Below are positions 28,433 to 37,263 of a stretch of 64,000 nt of DNA, piece after piece. How positions within the stretch are numbered: position 1 is the first letter of the stretch; each line of letters opens with the position of its first letter. The position numbers and the translations under genes are program-made. This stretch comes from Bacteroidota bacterium (GTDB taxonomy: Bacteria > Bacteroidota > Ignavibacteria > OLB7). Location of the stretch: positions 62,001 to 126,000 of the forward strand of contig JAFDZV010000013.1 of the NCBI GenBank assembly GCA_018266795.1. The letters run 5' to 3'. Under the pieces are notes generated by a model that ran no database searches, was not told the DNA's origin, and worked only from the letters and a program-made list of their open reading frames with translations.

Positions 28433-28609
28433 ATGACGGACACAAAGGACACGCACGTGAGGTCTGACGATCCGGCTGAGTTGGCTGATCGGCCGAAGAA
28501 GGTTTACCAGACTCCACGCCTGATCGTTCATGGTACGCTTCAGGAAATTACCCGGAACGTTGGCAACGGTTTCGTCGATTTTCCGAACGGATCATCGATA
28601 GCCGGTTGA
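28433..28609 (+). CDS. Lasso-type RiPP precursor peptide
   Basis: A 58-residue peptide with the leader signature of lasso-type RiPPs: Y25-x-x-P28-x-L30-x-x-x-G34-x-L36-x-x-x-T40 (KVYQTPRLIVHGTLQEIT). This motif is bound by PqqD-like recognition proteins, and Thr40 is normally the penultimate leader residue. Cleavage after Arg41 would leave a 17-residue core starting at Asn42 with an Asp at core position 8 (NVGNGFVD, then FPNGSSIAG), a plausible eight-residue ring. Asn at position 1 is unusual; Gly is normal. The ATG at 28433 has GGAG ten bases upstream (28419-28422). A longer frame upstream is unconserved. Matching B1 and B2 proteins lie 8 kb downstream; no cyclase is seen. Confidence 0.75.
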   Translation: MTDTKDTHVRSDDPAELADRPKKVYQTPRLIVHGTLQEITRNVGNGFVDFPNGSSIAG

Positions 28610-29174
28610 GCACGCTGCTGCGACGCATCCACATTCTGCCGGTGGTTGCAGTCATGGCCGATTGGCCGGCAGCGATTGGATCATGATGATGGCGCTGCAT
28701 CCCGGGCACCGTGCCAGGTGCTCGAGGATGTAGCTTCCGGTTGTCATCCTGCAGTATGGCTTCCCGCTCTTCCCCGCCGCGTGTTTCCGCACGCAACGGG
28801 GATCCCCGCGCAACTACCCCGCTTTCAGTTCTTTCGGGCCGTATCGCTCCGTTGTTTAGTTGCCGGCAACTCGATGATTGCCGATTGCGCCAGTGTGCAG
28901 CCCGGCATTTCGATCCGTACGGACTCATTCCGATTAGCGCCATCCACCCCCAATGGGCTGCTTGTATGCGGTGCCAGTCCGCAATCGTGCATTGATATGC
29001 CTGCCGAGCCGGCAAGAGCCCGCAAACCGCTCCGTTACCCGCCGAGCGATGCGGGCCTCATCCTAGGCTCATAGAGATTTTGTTAATTGAGTACCCGGTC
29101 CACGGCGTGCGCAGACGGTCCCCCTCTCTGGCCACGCCACTTTTCACTATATCGAACCCATGGAGGGTTTATCA
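28610..29174. other. 565-base interval after the precursor
   Basis: Nothing convincing is encoded here. A weak imperfect hairpin (CTGCCGG at 28636-28642 with CCGGCAG at 28666-28672) lies about 30 bases past the precursor stop and might end or attenuate its transcript. Short frames on both strands lack conserved features. Confidence 0.35.
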
Positions 29175-31070
29175 ATGTTTGGTGCTACGTGCCGGTCCAG
29201 AGGCAAAGCACGGTACGCTGTTGCGTTCACCGCATCCTTTTGCACGTTTTGGACCATGCTCGCACTGCCGCTCGCGGCACAGACCCGTTATGTGTACTTC
29301 CCGTCACCCCGTACCGATGACGGACGCTTTCTCACGATGGCAGGCGCTGGATTGAACACGCTTGGCCAGGAGGTTGTTCTCAAGCTGGGAGCGGCCCGAA
29401 CGTCCACAACGCTCGAAGTAGGCATCTTCGATGGTGAAACAGGAGGGCGATGGGACGTTGGGACGTTGCAGATGCAGTATCTCCTGTACGCCGATCCGAA
29501 CGGAGACGGAAGCGGCAACACGCTGCTCGCACAGTGGGATGGGAGCCAGATGCCGGATAATGCCTGGTTCACGGCAACGATTACCAATCCGGCGGCCGCT
29601 CGCAGCCCGATCGGCGACTACTTCTACCGATTGGTAGTTCACAATCCGGATCTCACCGTACCGAATGTCTGGAACAACTTCAAGATCAGAACCAGCGGTA
29701 CGGTGGTGGCATTGCTCGACAGGCCCGTGGCATATACGGCGCCGATGTTCAGCCTCGCGGACGCACAGACCATCTGCCCCCAGTATCCAACGTTGGATCC
29801 AACCACCTACGACGGGTCGTGGAACTTCTACTTCTATCTCCGGCAGCCCGCGACGTCGTTTACGATCTGGGATGGTGACATGGACTTCGGTTCGTACGAT
29901 TGTTCCGTAAACGATGACGACGATCCCGATACGCCGAACGATGCCGTTCCAACGTGGGCGCAGGGAACGATGGCGGTTCCCGAGGGAGTTGCAACCTCCA
30001 CGCAGCCCTGCGTGAACTCGTCAGGGGTTCAGACTGGCGGCAACACAACCAGCAATCCGCCGGACGACTCACGGAACAGTGCCACCCGGCGTTCGCCCAA
30101 CGTGGGCTATGAAGTGATATCTCCGGACGGCGTTCATTATGCGAATACTAACCCCTCGGGCAATCTGGAGTGGGAGCAGTTCAATCTGAGCACGGCCCCG
30201 TTCGACAGGAACGTGATGGACTATCACGCGGATTCGCTTCCGGCCGGCGTCTATCAGGTGAAAGTGGTGGGCGTGGACCTGAACAACCTCAACGCCTTCC
30301 GATTCCCGCTGGACGCCCTCGGCGTGGACTCCACCGGTGCACCGGTGCTGCCGATCAGCCCGGACTTCAGTGATGGCGTGGTGAGCGGGACTATCTACTA
30401 CGAAAGCGGCAACAATACCACGCAGGATGTAGGTGAGGCGGGCATCCCCAGCATCACGATCAATCTCGCCGTGGATTACAACAACGACGGCGTTGTGGAT
30501 GCAACGTTGACCACTGAGACCGACGCCGACGGGTACTTCATCTTCGGCGGCCTGTCCGCAGGTACCTACACCCTGACCGTGGACCTGGGCACGCTTGCGG
30601 ACGACGTCACGCCGCTCACCGATCCGGACGGTACGGCTACGCCGAGCAGTTCCACATTCACCCTGACAATGGGTTCGCGAACCGTGGTCGAGACATTCGG
30701 CTACCACCGGATCAACGACGTCGGCACGCGTACCCGCGGATACTGGGTGAACCATCCAACCGCATGGCCGGCAACGGAACTTCGTCTCGGGAATACCTAT
30801 TACTCGAAGTGCCAGTTGATCGATATCCTGCAGCGCGCGACACGAGGCGACAAGACCTACGCCCTCGCCGCACAATTGATCGCTGCGAAGCTGAACATTC
30901 TTGATGGTTGCGATCCCTCATGTATCGAGCAAACGATCACGGACTCCGACTCGTGGCTTGTACAACATCGCCTGGGAAGCAATGTCAAGAGCTGGTGCGG
31001 CGGCGATGTGCTGCAGAACACGCTGGATGATTACAACAACGGCCGCCTGTGCGTTGGGCATATGAACTGA
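29175..31070 (+). CDS. Secreted SdrD-B-like protein with GYWVNHP domain, paralogue 1
   Basis: A 631-residue secreted protein. A signal peptide ends near ALPLAAQT, followed by RYVYFPSP. The N-terminal half carries motifs shared by all three paralogues: IFDGETGG, LYADPNGD, WDGDMDFGSYDC, DDPDTPN, NPSGNLEWEQF and MDYHADSLPAGVYQ. An SdrD-B-like beta domain (residues about 400-500) includes IPSITINLAVDYNNDGVVDAT and GLSAGTYTLTVD. The C-terminus, from GTRTRGYWVNHP to LDDYNNGRLCVGHMN, resembles a GYWKNHP-type domain I recall from other secreted proteins, function unknown. The start is set by GGAGGG at 29162-29167, seven bases before the ATG at 29175. Role unknown; an adhesive or surface-structural one is inferred. 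Confidence 0.8.
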   Translation: MFGATCRSRGKARYAVAFTASFCTFWTMLALPLAAQTRYVYFPSPRTDDGRFLTMAGAGLNTLGQEVVLKLGAARTSTTLEVGIFDGETGGRWDVGTLQMQYLLYADPNGDGSGNTLLAQWDGSQMPDNAWFTATITNPAAARSPIGDYFYRLVVHNPDLTVPNVWNNFKIRTSGTVVALLDRPVAYTAPMFSLADAQTICPQYPTLDPTTYDGSWNFYFYLRQPATSFTIWDGDMDFGSYDCSVNDDDDPDTPNDAVPTWAQGTMAVPEGVATSTQPCVNSSGVQTGGNTTSNPPDDSRNSATRRSPNVGYEVISPDGVHYANTNPSGNLEWEQFNLSTAPFDRNVMDYHADSLPAGVYQVKVVGVDLNNLNAFRFPLDALGVDSTGAPVLPISPDFSDGVVSGTIYYESGNNTTQDVGEAGIPSITINLAVDYNNDGVVDATLTTETDADGYFIFGGLSAGTYTLTVDLGTLADDVTPLTDPDGTATPSSSTFTLTMGSRTVVETFGYHRINDVGTRTRGYWVNHPTAWPATELRLGNTYYSKCQLIDILQRATRGDKTYALAAQLIAAKLNILDGCDPSCIEQTITDSDSWLVQHRLGSNVKSWCGGDVLQNTLDDYNNGRLCVGHMN

Positions 31071-31093
31071 CGCCGCGCCCTGCTGCATATGAA

Positions 31094-31141
31094 CTGCCGC
31101 AGTTCCCTCAATCGTGTGGGAACTGCGGCAGCCTCGTTTTT
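31094..31141 (+). terminator. Strong rho-independent terminator after paralogue 1
   Basis: A perfect 14-bp stem CTGCCGCAGTTCCC (31094-31107) with its complement at 31118-31131 encloses a ten-base loop. CCTCG and then five T residues follow, to 31141. It is the clearest intrinsic terminator in the window and separates paralogue 1 from paralogue 2. Confidence 0.9.
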
Positions 31142-31916
31142 ACAACATAGGATACGTCAGGTCCGAATGTTCGGAATGAATGCCGTCGAGGTCCCGATCC
31201 GCGCGACTGTGCCCAAAAGAGACCGAAATTCAAGGGCGACGGTGGTCTCTGCACCGTGACCGGAGTAGTGCGAGAGTTCGTAACAAACATCGCTCAGTAT
31301 TACGAAGGTATTGCGTCGCGTGTGCCCACGGCGTTATGTTTGCCCGTCTTGTAAACCTAAGGTCAGCAACCTGCGACCAGTGTTCCGTCGATGTCCAGTT
31401 GGCGGGCATATCAAGAGGCTTGTACAATGATTCTTTATTTGGGGAAGAATCGTTGGCGCCGGAGTCAGGGTTGTACTGCATACGTGGGATTCTGCTCTCT
31501 TGGACGCAGCATGGCTGGAAGTGGTGTTCCAGTACGATGAGATCCCATGTTGCGCCTGTTCGGTTATTACACGACGGTCCACCTTCCAATCCCAATACCC
31601 GTTCGAAAACAACCAGATAACCTGTCGCCGTGCGTTTGCGCATGGCTCAGGATATAGAGCGCTGCTGCCGCCACGTGCCACCCCGCACGGACCGGCAGAC
31701 TTGATTGAGGCGTAACCCCGCGATTGAGCACCAACTCACCCTTCGTTCGCGGAACGCGCCAGGATGTGACAGAGCATGCACACTGGGTAGGCATGAACAG
31801 CATGCGATAGCTTCGCGCATCTGCCGCGCGAGCTTCGTTCGACGATGTATATGTATCACGCATTCCATTCCGGCGTTCCCTCGAACCCTGGATCCGGTAT
31901 GGAGTCGACATTAACG
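31142..31916. other. 775-base interval between paralogues 1 and 2
   Basis: No supported gene. Frames such as 31180-31620 on the plus strand lack a ribosome binding site and any conserved feature. The region appears less GC-rich than its flanks. Paralogue 2 must have its own promoter here because a strong terminator precedes it. Confidence 0.4.
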
Positions 31917-33797
31917 ATGAACAATCTCATGAGGCCTAACAGTCTACTCAAGGCATGTGCCACGCCTGCCCTCCTCGTTGCATCGCTTCTGCTGTTTGTT
32001 TCGGGCCTTACCGCCCAGACGCGCTTTGCCTACATCCCGAGCACTTCCACGAACGATCCACGTTTCCTGTCGATCACGGGAAGCGGTGTTCAGACCCTGG
32101 GTGATCAGGTTCTGACGTTCAAGATCAGCGCGCCGGCCGGCTCGCCGAACTTCCAGCTCGGCATCTTCGATGGCGAGACGGGCGGCATGTGGGACATCGG
32201 GACACAGCCACTCCAGTACACTCTCTTTGCCGATCCGAACTCCGACGCCACCGGCACGTACCAGGTTGCGCAGTGGATGGGCAATACGATGCCGGACAAT
32301 GACTGGTTCAACGCGACAGTGAACAACGTTTCGCAGGCGCGCGCAGCCACCGGTGATTTCTTCTACGTGCTCCGTGTTCGTTCCCTGGACTACGGTGCGT
32401 ACTTCTGGAGCAACTTCAAGATTCGCGTCAGCGGCTCGGTGACGGCCCTTCGTCTTACGAACATCGCCTACTCCGCTCCGCTCTGTACGCTCGGCGACGC
32501 CCGCATCGTCTATCCGCAGTATCCAACACTCTCCCCCACCACGTACGACGGTGTGTGGAACTTCTATGTGAGCGTTCCCTCGGCACAGACGTCGCTGGTG
32601 GTGTGGGATGGTGACATGGATCACGGCTCGTACGACTGCTCGGATAACGATACGGACGATCCCGACACCCCGAACACGATTCCTCCGTTTGCCACGGGAG
32701 CGGCTGTGCGCCCTGAGGGCATCGGCAACTTCGGCGGAGTTCCGTGCGTCAATGCCGCCGGCAATGTCGTCGCGGGTGTTACCACGAGCAACCCTCCTGA
32801 CGATTCGCAGAACCCGGTCTACCGTCGTACGCCCGCAATCAGCTACGAAGTGATCTCCCCGAACGGCGTTCACTATGTGAACAACAACCCCTCCGGCAAC
32901 CTAGAGTGGGAGCAGTTCATGATCAGCACGGCGCCGTTCAACCGTGCAACGATGGACTACCATGCGGACTCGCTGCCAGCAGGTGTCTACCAGATTCGCG
33001 TATCCGGTGTCGACCTCACGAACCTGAACGCCATTCGCTCGCCGTTCGAGATTCTCGCGGTGGATTCGGTGGGTACGCCGATCCCGATGCCGACGCCGTA
33101 TCAGATCAGCGGCACCATTTTCGAGGACCGCGACGGCAATGGCATCCAGGCCCCGGGAGAGCTTGGCATCCCGGGTGCGATCGTGACGCTGAACGGCGTC
33201 AGCGACACCACGGGCACCGATGGCCGCTACAGCTTCATCGCTCTGCAGCCTGGCGCCAATACGGTGCGCGTGAAGATGCCGGCAATCAACTGCGACAACA
33301 ACAACGACGGTGGTGATGACGACGGCGATCACCACAATGGCGGCTGCAACGGCGGCGATCGTCACGGCGACGATCATCACGGTGATGACAACAACCGTAA
33401 CGGCGGCGATCGTCACGGCGACGACAACAACCGTAACGGCTGCAACGGTGGCGATCATCACGGCGACGACAACAACCGTAACGGCTGCAACGGTGGCGAT
33501 CGTCACGGCGACGACAACAACCGTAACGGCTGCAACGGTGGCGATCATCACGGTGATGACGACAACAACAACAATGATTGCGGCACATGGCAGCCGACGT
33601 ACGACCTGGACGGCATTGCAACTCCGAACGTTGCGACGGTAACGCTCTCACTTCAGAACTCGAACCCGGTTCTCAAGTTTGGTTATCGCAAGGTCGGCGG
33701 CAACAACGGTGACGATGAGGACGACAACGACGGTGATGGCAACCACCATCACAACGGCGGCGACGATGACAATGATCACAATCATTGCTTCCACTAG
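31917..33797 (+). CDS. Secreted protein with Asp/Asn/His/Gly repeat domain, paralogue 2
   Basis: A 626-residue paralogue of the gene before it. A signal peptide (LLVASLLLFVSGLTAQT) is followed by the common N-terminal half (IFDGETGGMWDIGT, WDGDMDHGSYDCSDND, NPSGNLEWEQF, MDYHADSLPAGVYQ) and an SdrD-B-like module (SGTIFEDRDGNGIQAPGELG). It then departs: instead of the GYWVNHP domain it carries a long Asp/Asn/Gly/His/Arg repeat (GGDHHGDDNNRNGCN units) and a second acidic His-rich tail ending DHNHCFH. The composition suggests binding of calcium or transition metals. The start is uncertain among ATGs at 31899, 31917 and 31929; 31917 has GGAG twelve bases upstream. Confidence 0.8.
   Translation: MNNLMRPNSLLKACATPALLVASLLLFVSGLTAQTRFAYIPSTSTNDPRFLSITGSGVQTLGDQVLTFKISAPAGSPNFQLGIFDGETGGMWDIGTQPLQYTLFADPNSDATGTYQVAQWMGNTMPDNDWFNATVNNVSQARAATGDFFYVLRVRSLDYGAYFWSNFKIRVSGSVTALRLTNIAYSAPLCTLGDARIVYPQYPTLSPTTYDGVWNFYVSVPSAQTSLVVWDGDMDHGSYDCSDNDTDDPDTPNTIPPFATGAAVRPEGIGNFGGVPCVNAAGNVVAGVTTSNPPDDSQNPVYRRTPAISYEVISPNGVHYVNNNPSGNLEWEQFMISTAPFNRATMDYHADSLPAGVYQIRVSGVDLTNLNAIRSPFEILAVDSVGTPIPMPTPYQISGTIFEDRDGNGIQAPGELGIPGAIVTLNGVSDTTGTDGRYSFIALQPGANTVRVKMPAINCDNNNDGGDDDGDHHNGGCNGGDRHGDDHHGDDNNRNGGDRHGDDNNRNGCNGGDHHGDDNNRNGCNGGDRHGDDNNRNGCNGGDHHGDDDNNNNDCGTWQPTYDLDGIATPNVATVTLSLQNSNPVLKFGYRKVGGNNGDDEDDNDGDGNHHHNGGDDDNDHNHCFH
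33405..33584 (+). repeat. 45-bp tandem repeat within paralogue 2
   Basis: Copies begin at 33405, 33450, 33495 and 33540; the last is degenerate. Each encodes 15 residues, GGD(R/H)HGDDNNRNGCN. The unit alternates between GATCGTCAC and GATCATCAC in its first part, as if a two-unit block had been duplicated. A shorter, looser version precedes it from about 33350. Slippage or recombination could change copy number. Confidence 0.85.
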
Positions 33798-33859
33798 TCG
33801 CGGATCCGTCCTCCAGGACTGCGCCACTGCGCGCAGCACACTGAAATTCCTGTTGGTCA

Positions 33860-33898
33860 GCGAAGGGTCTGGGAGCAATCCTGGGCCCTTCGCACTTT
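33860..33898 (+). terminator. Hairpin terminator after paralogue 2
   Basis: GCGAAGGG at 33860-33867 pairs with CCCTTCGC at 33886-33893, and ACTTTTG follows directly. The intervening 18 bases may fold further. It lies 62 bases past the stop. Confidence 0.7.
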
Positions 33899-34467
33899 TG
33901 TCACGCTCGTATCGGCGCGATTATTCTCGAGCGGGAAAGTGGTCTATCAACAAGAGTTGTTTGGGAACTCCATGTTGAACGTCGTATTATCGCATCGTTC
34001 AAATTCGGATCAACCCCTGATCCGGTAGAGGTTCGTCACAGCCCACTGACGTCCTCACTGCAATTGACTCATCTCCTGTCCGCGCAGCAGTTCCGGCCGA
34101 TCCCCCGGTCGCCACGCCCCTGCTTCGCTTTCCAGAGCAATATCATGGCCCGCCCCCATTCAGGCGTGCACGTGCATATGCAGTGTGCGCGTGCAGTATG
34201 CGGATGATTTGCACATGCCCCAATTCCCCAATGACGCTCGCATGCCCGTGATGCCGGTCCTGTGGCTCTGCTGCATGAATGCACACCCCGATGCAGCGGA
34301 GGTGTTGAAGAGGCGCGGTGGCTGACTCCCCCTATCTCCTGCAATCGCTGCTTCGGCAGTTGCAGGCGCATTCTCCCGGGAGCACCGCAACTACCCGATA
34401 TCAACGACACGGTACGGCGTGCAAGCGCGTTCCGACGTCACTTTCTATATCCACAATCCACGTGCTT
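33899..34467. other. Interval between paralogues 2 and 3
   Basis: No supported gene. The frame of paralogue 3 stays open back to 34318 but upstream of 34468 it has no signal-peptide or conserved character. The interval is relatively AT-rich between 33900 and 34030 and probably holds the promoter of paralogue 3. Confidence 0.4.
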
Positions 34468-36339
34468 ATGCGACATTTTCAGTGGAGCAGATGTTCAGTT
34501 CTTTTTACAGCGTTGACAATCTGCACCGTGGCAGCCGCCACGGCACAAACACATTACAGCTACCTCCCCTCTGCTGCCGTCAATGACGGCCGCATGTTCT
34601 CGATTGCGGGAGGCAATCTGAACACACTCGCGGACAACACTCTGGTTTTCGAGATCGGAGTGCCCGCAGCTGCGACATCGTTCGAAATCGGAATCTTCGA
34701 CGGTGAGACGGGAGGCAACTGGGATCAAGGAACGGTACCGTTGGAGTATACTCTGTACGCCGATCCGAACGGCGACGCTACCGGCGCCACGCAGGTCGGC
34801 ATCTGGCACGGCGACAGCATGGTCAACAACGGCTGGTACAACATCACGCTCAATACGGCGGAGGCGGCCCATTGCAACGGCGCCAACTTCTTCTACACGC
34901 TCAAGGTGCGGAGCACCGATCCGGCCACGTTCCAATGGAGCAGCTTCAAGCTCCGCACGTCCGGCACGATCGTCATCCGCCGCAACACCAGTATCGCCTA
35001 CACGGCGCCGCTCGGCAACGGCCTCGACGCACTGAACATCTATCCGAACTATCCCACGCTCACGCCGACCACATACGACGGCTCGTGGCATTTCTTCTTC
35101 CAGGTTCCGGATGTCGTCAAGCTCTCCATGGTCGATATCTGGGACGGTGATCTCGATCGAGGCTCGTACGACTGCAGCGACAACGACACGGACGATCCGG
35201 ACACGCCGAACTCGATCCCCACGTGGGCCACTGGCCCCGTGGTGGCGGAGGGAACTGCCGTCAGCTCGCTTCCGTGCCAGGATGCCTCGGGCAACCCGAC
35301 CGGCGGCAATACCACCAGTAACCCCGCGGACGACTCCCGCAACCCGGTATTCCGTCGCGGCCCCGGCGTATCGTACGAACTGATCTCCCCGGGCGGCACG
35401 CACTATCTGAATGACAACCCCTCCGGCAATCTGGAGTGGGAGCACTTCGTGCTCAGCACCGATGCTTTCGATCGCAACCAGATGGATTACCACGTGCCCT
35501 CGATCGAGCGCGGCATCTGGGAACTCCGTGTGAGCGGTGTGGACCTGAGCAATCTCAACGCATTCCGCTTTCCGTACGATGCAACCGGCGTGGACTCCAA
35601 CGGCGTGGCGATTGCCCCGCTCAGCGCCGACTTCACGAACGGAACGGTAACCGGCCTCGTGTACTACGAGAACAACGGCAACAACACGCAGGACGCAAAC
35701 GAGCCGGGAATCCCGAGCGTTTCGATAACGCTGAGCTGCGATTTCAACAACGACGGCATCGTCGATACCACGCTGACCACGGAGACCAACTCCAGCGGCC
35801 AGTTCACATTCACCGGTCTCTCCAAGGGAACCTATACCATCACGGTCGAGACCAGCACGCTCGTTCCGGGCACCACACCGGTTTGGGATAGCGACAGCAC
35901 CGCAACGGTGAACATCGTGGGGTGCACGCTTACGTCGTGCTCGCACACGGCTTCGGCAACGTTTGCCTACCAGACGCCTGCACCACCGGTGGGAACGCGT
36001 ACGCGCGGCTACTGGGTGAATCATCCGGACGACTGGCCCGTCTCCTCGCTGACGCTTGGCGGGCGCTCGTATACAAAGGCGGAACTGCTGGATATTCTGA
36101 AGCGCCCAACCCGCGGCGACCAGACGTATTCGCTTTCTGCTCAGCTGATCGCAACCAAGCTCAACATCCAGGCGGGTTCCATCTCCACCTGTATCACCCA
36201 GACGGTCAGCGATGCGGACTCGTTCCTCACGCTGCATCCGGTGGGAAGCCAGGTGAAGAGCGATCAGACCGCGAGCAGCCTGACGGACACATTGGATGAC
36301 TACAACAATGGCCGTCTCTGCGCACAGCACATGAACTAA
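34468..36339 (+). CDS. Secreted SdrD-B-like protein with GYWVNHP domain, paralogue 3
   Basis: A 623-residue protein with the same domain order as paralogue 1. A signal peptide (CSVLFTALTICTVAAATAQT) is followed by YSYLPS, IFDGETGGNWDQGT, WDGDLDRGSYDCSDND, NPSGNLEWEHF and MDYHVPSIERGIWELRVSG. An SdrD-B-like module includes IPSVSITLSCDFNNDGIVD. The C-terminal domain runs from GTRTRGYWVNHPDDWPVSS to LDDYNNGRLCAQHMN and matches paralogue 1 closely. I chose the ATG at 34468 because it gives a clean signal peptide, although no good ribosome binding site precedes it. A hairpin separates it from the B1/B2 maturation genes downstream. Confidence 0.8.
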   Translation: MRHFQWSRCSVLFTALTICTVAAATAQTHYSYLPSAAVNDGRMFSIAGGNLNTLADNTLVFEIGVPAAATSFEIGIFDGETGGNWDQGTVPLEYTLYADPNGDATGATQVGIWHGDSMVNNGWYNITLNTAEAAHCNGANFFYTLKVRSTDPATFQWSSFKLRTSGTIVIRRNTSIAYTAPLGNGLDALNIYPNYPTLTPTTYDGSWHFFFQVPDVVKLSMVDIWDGDLDRGSYDCSDNDTDDPDTPNSIPTWATGPVVAEGTAVSSLPCQDASGNPTGGNTTSNPADDSRNPVFRRGPGVSYELISPGGTHYLNDNPSGNLEWEHFVLSTDAFDRNQMDYHVPSIERGIWELRVSGVDLSNLNAFRFPYDATGVDSNGVAIAPLSADFTNGTVTGLVYYENNGNNTQDANEPGIPSVSITLSCDFNNDGIVDTTLTTETNSSGQFTFTGLSKGTYTITVETSTLVPGTTPVWDSDSTATVNIVGCTLTSCSHTASATFAYQTPAPPVGTRTRGYWVNHPDDWPVSSLTLGGRSYTKAELLDILKRPTRGDQTYSLSAQLIATKLNIQAGSISTCITQTVSDADSFLTLHPVGSQVKSDQTASSLTDTLDDYNNGRLCAQHMN

Positions 36340-36458
36340 CGGCTCCAGCACAGGCGCCGGACGCGGCACAACCGCAAGGCATGGGCGTGGACACCGCCCG
36401 CACCGTGCACCGTCCCGATTCCGGATGACCTGCAAAACGCGAAGAGCATGGATGGAAT

Positions 36459-36490
36459 ACCGGGGACGATCGGCAACGATCGTCCCCGGT
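36459..36490 (+). terminator. Hairpin terminator between paralogue 3 and the B1/B2 genes
   Basis: A perfect 14-bp stem ACCGGGGACGATCG (36459-36472) with its complement at 36477-36490 closes on the tetraloop GCAA, a stable GNRA type. TTCGTTCG follows. The B1 gene starts 67 bases downstream, so it probably has its own promoter. Confidence 0.75.
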
Positions 36491-36557
36491 TTCGTTCGTG
36501 TCCGATTGGAACGGTTATACAGCGGAACTTTTCGATCAACGCTCGTAGATTGGCCCC

Positions 36558-36860
36558 ATGCAACAGACGCTTGGTCCGCGATCACGCATTCTGCGCTCCT
36601 CGCAGCAGGTCTCCTGCGATCTCGCCGGCGAGGCGGCGATTCTTCATCTGGCGGACGGTGTCTACTACGGTCTGGACCGTGTTGGTGCAACGATCTGGAA
36701 TCTTCTGGATCGGTCCCGAACGCTCGAGGAACTGCGTGACGAAGTGATGGCGGAGTACGACGTGGAGGCCGCAGAATGTGAGCGCGACATCGTAGCCTTG
36801 ATCAACGATCTCTGGGCGCGAGGCCTGGTTCTGGTGGAGAGCGATGGCAATGCTCCGTAA
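36558..36860 (+). CDS. PqqD-like RiPP recognition protein (lasso B1 type)
   Basis: A 100-residue PqqD-family protein, the RiPP recognition element that binds leader peptides. The pattern matches the family: AAILHLADGVYYGLDRVGATIWNLLD near residues 26-51, then RTLEELRDEVMAEYDV and the acidic helix ECERDIVALINDLWARGLVLV. In lasso systems this small protein presents the YxxPxL leader to the B2 peptidase. Its 3' end overlaps the B2 gene by 17 bases, the usual order and coupling of split B proteins. The likely client is the precursor at 28433-28609. The remaining doubt is whether this pair serves that precursor or one outside the window. Confidence 0.85.
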   Translation: MQQTLGPRSRILRSSQQVSCDLAGEAAILHLADGVYYGLDRVGATIWNLLDRSRTLEELRDEVMAEYDVEAAECERDIVALINDLWARGLVLVESDGNAP

Positions 36861-37263
36861 ATATTTCCGGCTCCCGGCCCGGGAGCGCGTGCTCCTGCTC
36901 CGCGCACTGTGGCGCCTCGGTGCGGCTCGCACAGGCCTGACCCTGTTCCGCTTCCCGTTGCTGGACAGATGGTTTGCCGCAGCCGGTGCCGGCTCCCGGT
37001 CGGGCGAAAGGGTCAGCGTGGAACGGATCGCCTGGAGCATACAGGTCGCGGCACGATACATTCCGCGCTCCACATGTCTTGTTCAGGCACTTGCGGCACG
37101 CTCCCTGATGGCACGGTACGGCTACCGATCCGAGTTGCGCATCGGTGTGAATCGCGACAGCAGGGGAGCGTTCGAGGCGCATGCCTGGCTGGAGTACAAC
37201 GGCAAGGCCGTGATTGGAGAACTGGAGAGCGCCTCGTTCACGCCCCTTCCTCCGCTTGCCTGA
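36844..37263 (+). CDS. Lasso-peptide-type leader peptidase (B2, transglutaminase-like)
   Basis: A 139-residue cysteine protease of the lasso B2 (Transglut_core3) family. Residues 1-60 are the helical part (RKYFRLPARERVLLLRALWRL). The catalytic Cys78 lies in RSTCLVQALAARSLMARYGY, and His113 in FEAHAWLEYNG. Length is typical for split B2 proteins (about 140-150). It should cut the leader after the conserved Thr-x position. The start overlaps B1 by 17 bases; a second in-frame ATG at 36850 is equally possible. No asparagine-synthetase-like lasso cyclase or ABC exporter follows: the next gene is an unrelated barrel. Confidence 0.85.
   Translation: MAMLRKYFRLPARERVLLLRALWRLGAARTGLTLFRFPLLDRWFAAAGAGSRSGERVSVERIAWSIQVAARYIPRSTCLVQALAARSLMARYGYRSELRIGVNRDSRGAFEAHAWLEYNGKAVIGELESASFTPLPPLA

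Follow-up and report, generated by a model that had tools for sequence, protein, structure and literature searches.

Precursor, B1 and B2 genes of a predicted lasso-peptide pathway lie apart from the cyclase gene in two species of one Ignavibacteria genus

The window, the 64,000-nucleotide stretch of DNA analysed here (G000:C4:62001-126000), belongs to a genome of 5.97 Mb and carries on its forward strand a 58-residue lasso precursor peptide (28433-28609), identified by its match to the NF033521 profile and by two homologous peptides that share its core pattern in G001, another species of the genus, represented by the metagenome-assembled genome (MAG) 'Chlorobiota bacterium RYN_334'. In a profile search, this ORF scored 22.8 bits against NF033521 lasso_leader_L3 (curated cut-off 19), the only place in the genome matched by the profile, and none of 14 control genomes contained a match above the cut-off. 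A loose DNA leader pattern was of no use, giving 957 matches, and the NF033521 family search was taken instead; a strict leader motif was found once in the window versus 0 times in 60 simulated windows. The precursor ATG is preceded by GGAGAA. With the cut predicted to fall behind Arg(-1), the leader contains Y(-17), P(-14), L(-12) and T(-2), residues common to all three precursors (one in the window and two in G001), and this spacing agrees with the lasso precursor leaders described in PMC10368454. The predicted core, NVGNGFVDFPNGSSIAG, comprises 17 residues with an Asp at position 8.

Approximately 8 kb downstream of the precursor, two overlapping genes on the same strand encode B1 and B2. 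B1 (36558-36860, 100 aa), a PqqD-like leader-binding protein (RRE), matched PF05402 PqqD with 67.5 bits and scored 64.1 bits against the lasso-specific NF033536 lasso_PqqD_Bac, below its cut-off of 80. B2 (36844-37263, 139 aa), a transglutaminase-like leader peptidase, matched PF13471 with 81.3 bits and NF033537 lasso_biosyn_B2 with 93.8 bits (cut-off 33), and its Cys78 and His113 were invariant across 60 aligned sequences. These are the sole PqqD and the sole B2 of the genome. An earlier sequence-only reading of this DNA had proposed both the precursor with its lasso leader and the overlapping B1/B2 pair, and the profile matches confirmed the three assignments.

Three large secreted paralogues, also described in that reading, occupy the interval between the precursor and B1 on the forward strand; they are related by alignment, and each carries an SdrD_B-like domain by Pfam. 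Paralogue 1 lies at 29160-31070, paralogue 2 at 31869-33797 (start at 31845 or 31869) and paralogue 3, whose C-terminal region is like that of paralogue 1, at 34372-36339 (the frame opens with GTG at 34318 and the start is uncertain), with paralogues 2 and 3 being 49 and 53% identical to paralogue 1, respectively. The H/G/D/N-rich repeat tail of paralogue 2 is encoded by a 45-bp tandem repeat of 4.9 copies (33341-33566), and a strong terminator-like hairpin is located 3' of this gene (33860-33893); promoter and terminator scans returned nothing relevant to the lasso question, whether above chance or close to it. The genome contains six clear copies of this family, three in the window, two on C44 and one on C41, the latter three without B1/B2, compared to a single B1/B2 locus, and both G001 copies lie beyond B2, outside the cluster. 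A role for the paralogues in the lasso pathway was therefore rejected, and the suggestion that the peptide is linked to these surface proteins is not supported; they are probably unrelated neighbours duplicated into the locus.

The genome contains seven places matching PF00733 (Asn synthase), all on contigs other than that of the window, in line with the earlier remark that no cyclase is visible there. Only one gene in the genome passed NF033535, the family of lasso peptide isopeptide bond-forming cyclases (601.9 bits, cut-off 525). It encodes a protein of 621 residues on the forward strand of another contig (G000:C32:77580-79445; L010:15581-17446), begins with MSGI versus MCGI in the three other long Asn synthetases of the genome, and retains the SGGLDSS loop. 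It has no N-terminal Cys, the nucleophile for amidotransfer, in agreement with what is expected of lasso cyclases. An asparagine-synthetase-like cyclase is thus encoded in the genome, which holds one copy each of the precursor, B1, B2 and an NF033535-grade cyclase. B1/B2 sit mid-contig on C4, at least 90 kb from the cyclase, and the C32 contig stops 101 bp past the cyclase gene, so that a further precursor could lie beyond it in this genome. Placement of the cyclase in the same gene cluster is usual for lasso pathways and is not chemically required. No ABC exporter was found among the ORFs listed at the precursor-B1-B2 and cyclase loci, the two loci covered; such exporters are common in lasso pathways and not universal.

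A parallel separation was observed in G001: its single B2 is found at C2:280 kb, whereas its single NF033535-grade cyclase, scoring 756.5 bits, is found at C1:209 kb, which puts a minimum of 238 kb between them. Of the two possibilities left by the sequence-only reading, a cyclase elsewhere or none at all, the former is the one supported by both genomes. The B1/B2 locus of G001 consists of haem genes, two precursors, an HprK-like kinase, B1, B2, a barrel-like protein and a lipoprotein; the last two also follow B2 in the window, and haem genes adjoin both loci. The precursor is conserved in this relative, which keeps B1/B2 as well. Window and G001 proteins are 57% (B1), 44% (B2) and 46% (cyclase) identical, and in the trees the two cyclases are sisters (95/93), as are the two B1-B2 pairs, with weak support (81/38). 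The cyclase genes share neighbours in the same order, namely a TonB receptor, a HupE-like protein, a 164-aa protein, a TPR protein, a DUF4331 protein and a lipoprotein; the TonB receptor, HupE, TPR, DUF4331 and lipoprotein neighbours show 33-72% identity. A leader-pattern scan of approximately 17 kb beyond the G001 cyclase revealed no convincing precursor.

The two loci differ in the kinase, which is placed between precursors and B1 in G001, whereas at the window locus the paralogues hold this position and no kinase remnant is detectable. A kinase-like gene with 35% identity, a distant homologue, is found on C29 of the window genome. Both genomes have a solitary HprK-like kinase gene within a few kb of prfB (L211:7320-8468 on G000:C29; L212:639-1835 on G001:C3), and no lasso genes were seen next to it in either. 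At core position 4, the two G001 precursors (L024:17173-18351), which adjoin the kinase, have Ser and the window precursor, whose locus lacks it, has Asn, a comparison of three sequences only.

The two G001 cores, NIGSGSVDFPMGSHLAG and NVGSGPVDFPMGSHLAG, share with the window core the residues N1, G3, G5, V7, D8, F9, P10, G12, S13, A16 and G17. All three cores thus have in Asp8 the Asp or Glu that a macrolactam requires at one of core positions 7-9, and because it lies within a conserved 17-residue core, an ordinary N1-D8 lasso is predicted. At 9 of the 11 invariant residues the codons differ among the three precursor genes, and as the core was kept while synonymous sites changed, it looks to be under selection, including Asp8, for which only a cyclase would have a use. 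Such selection would point towards the cyclase meeting the precursor, short of proof. The first core residue, Asn1, is atypical for a lasso peptide, which counts against this explanation.

Separation of B2 from the cyclase is rare among relatives. B2 was located within about 10 kb of the cyclase in 77 of the 80 nearest cyclase relatives (species genomes), which are mostly Mesorhizobium and therefore not independent; the three exceptions were G001, L153, where the contig is cut off beside the cyclase, and L179, an 11-kb contig. The usual gene order in the closest loci of the Bacteroidota phylum is B1-B2-cyclase-kinase. A reverse split was found in G684, of the same phylum, whose only B2 lies with a B1 and an adjoining ABC transporter-like gene on C3 (L089:9737-10515) with no cyclase there, while C5 and C6 carry one cyclase-like gene each, accompanied by a kinase and by a precursor-like ORF whose leader contains YxxPxL (L214:7175-10625; L215:6006-10403), in modules without B1/B2. 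These cyclase-like genes scored 325 and 347 bits against NF033535, below the cut-off of 525, which makes this second case less secure; one B1/B2 in G684 may serve two lasso precursors. In three genomes of family f43, a B2-B1 pair had no cyclase within the fetched flanks of up to 10 kb (L080:8783-10273, L086:8559-10430, L100:8631-10510) and no lasso leader was seen nearby; the pairs follow a conserved small secreted protein and, in two of the three, an NAD(P)-binding-type gene as well, and they may represent a genuine cyclase-free role for B1/B2. The cyclase search in genomes with B2-B1 only was run at E <= 1e-60, a threshold too strict to exclude divergent cyclases, and the B1/B2 contig of G253 stops approximately 700 bp after B2, leaving this genome uninformative.

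From these comparisons, we consider it highly probable that the window carries the first half of a lasso-peptide pathway and that the cyclase belonging to it is encoded far away on the chromosome; the two genomes show this split arrangement to be conserved across two species of this genus. We infer that precursor, B1, B2 and cyclase work together, and likewise where the leader is cut and that the product is threaded: B1 would bind the YxxPxL leader, B2 would cleave on the C-terminal side of Arg(-1), and the remote cyclase would activate Asp8 with ATP and close an 8-residue ring onto Asn1, yielding a 17-residue lasso peptide. The predicted chemistry is ordinary lasso chemistry, and both it and the protein families are already known; what is unusual is the conserved split.

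A cyclase-free system, in which B1/B2 merely trim the leader to release a free linear 17-residue peptide, perhaps tied to the paralogues, and the remote cyclase serves something else or acts on another precursor, would account for the distance between cyclase and B1/B2 in both genomes and has a counterpart in the B2-B1 pairs that lack a cyclase within 10 kb elsewhere in the phylum. Since a lasso cyclase is present, exactly one B2 and one NF033535-grade cyclase occur in each of two genomes, Asp8 is kept in all three precursors, and no other lasso-leader precursor was found in the window genome or near the G001 cyclase, we regard this option, one of those left by the earlier reading, as very unlikely. 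Equally little probability attaches to the view that the locus is a decaying lasso cluster into which the three paralogues were inserted, with loss of the kinase, leaving the remaining genes as remnants. The kinase of the G001 locus, missing without detectable remnant from the window, is what such decay would leave, but the reading frames of precursor, B1, B2 and cyclase are all intact, catalytic residues have been retained, the core is conserved against synonymous change, and a distant kinase homologue persists on C29. The least probable explanation is an artefact of assembly or binning, whereby the cyclase really adjoins B1/B2 or comes from another organism, to which the contig end so close to the C32 cyclase lends some weight. 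B1/B2, however, lie mid-contig with the same flanking genes in both genomes, and in G001 the nearest contig end is approximately 38 kb away from the cyclase, behind which come tRNA genes, secE and genes for ribosomal proteins; the recurrence of the split and of the cyclase neighbourhood in two assemblies is a strong argument against assembly error.

The preferred reading, a lasso pathway with a remote cyclase, places the locus near known systems. Lasso clusters of cyanobacteria, Mesorhizobium and Rhodothermales (L120-L131, L151) contain the same families (a discrete B1 RRE, B2, an NF033535-type cyclase and an HprK-like kinase) and a similar leader, and in Petrachloros mirabilis (L120) the core, QGGVSQTDVPLGTPVG..., shares Asp8 and is similar to the window core beyond this residue. 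In those clusters B1, B2 and cyclase stand together, whereas the window locus has neither a linked cyclase nor a kinase. The Bsf phosphorylated lasso system of Bradymonas sediminis (PMC10368454) shares discrete B1/B2, YxxPxL at -17 to -12, an Asp8 ring and a kinase in the pathway, the last of these here only at the G001 locus; the window locus differs in lacking the kinase and in Thr(-2) and Asn1 compared to Ile(-2) and Gly1. RiPP pathways with unclustered enzymes are known from lanthipeptides, whose proteases are encoded elsewhere in the genome (PMC8960859). Those systems share with the present one a maturation enzyme encoded away from its precursor; the remote enzyme there is a protease, whereas here it is the class-defining lasso cyclase, in a conserved place. 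No description of a lasso pathway whose cyclase is unlinked came up in a literature search, most subscription journals being outside its scope.

When genomes are mined for lasso peptides by gene cluster, precursor, B1/B2 and cyclase are required to be adjacent, so that split pathways of the window type, or of the reverse type in G684, would be missed or dropped as false positives. RRE-Finder (PMC7470986) listed almost 8,000 lasso-type B1 proteins, only about 4,000 of them beside a peptidase and a cyclase, and some of the remainder may belong to split pathways. The analysis also predicts a directly testable product, an N1-D8 lasso of 17 residues, from a lineage where B2 is rare, being carried by only 4 of the 391 genomes sampled from the class.
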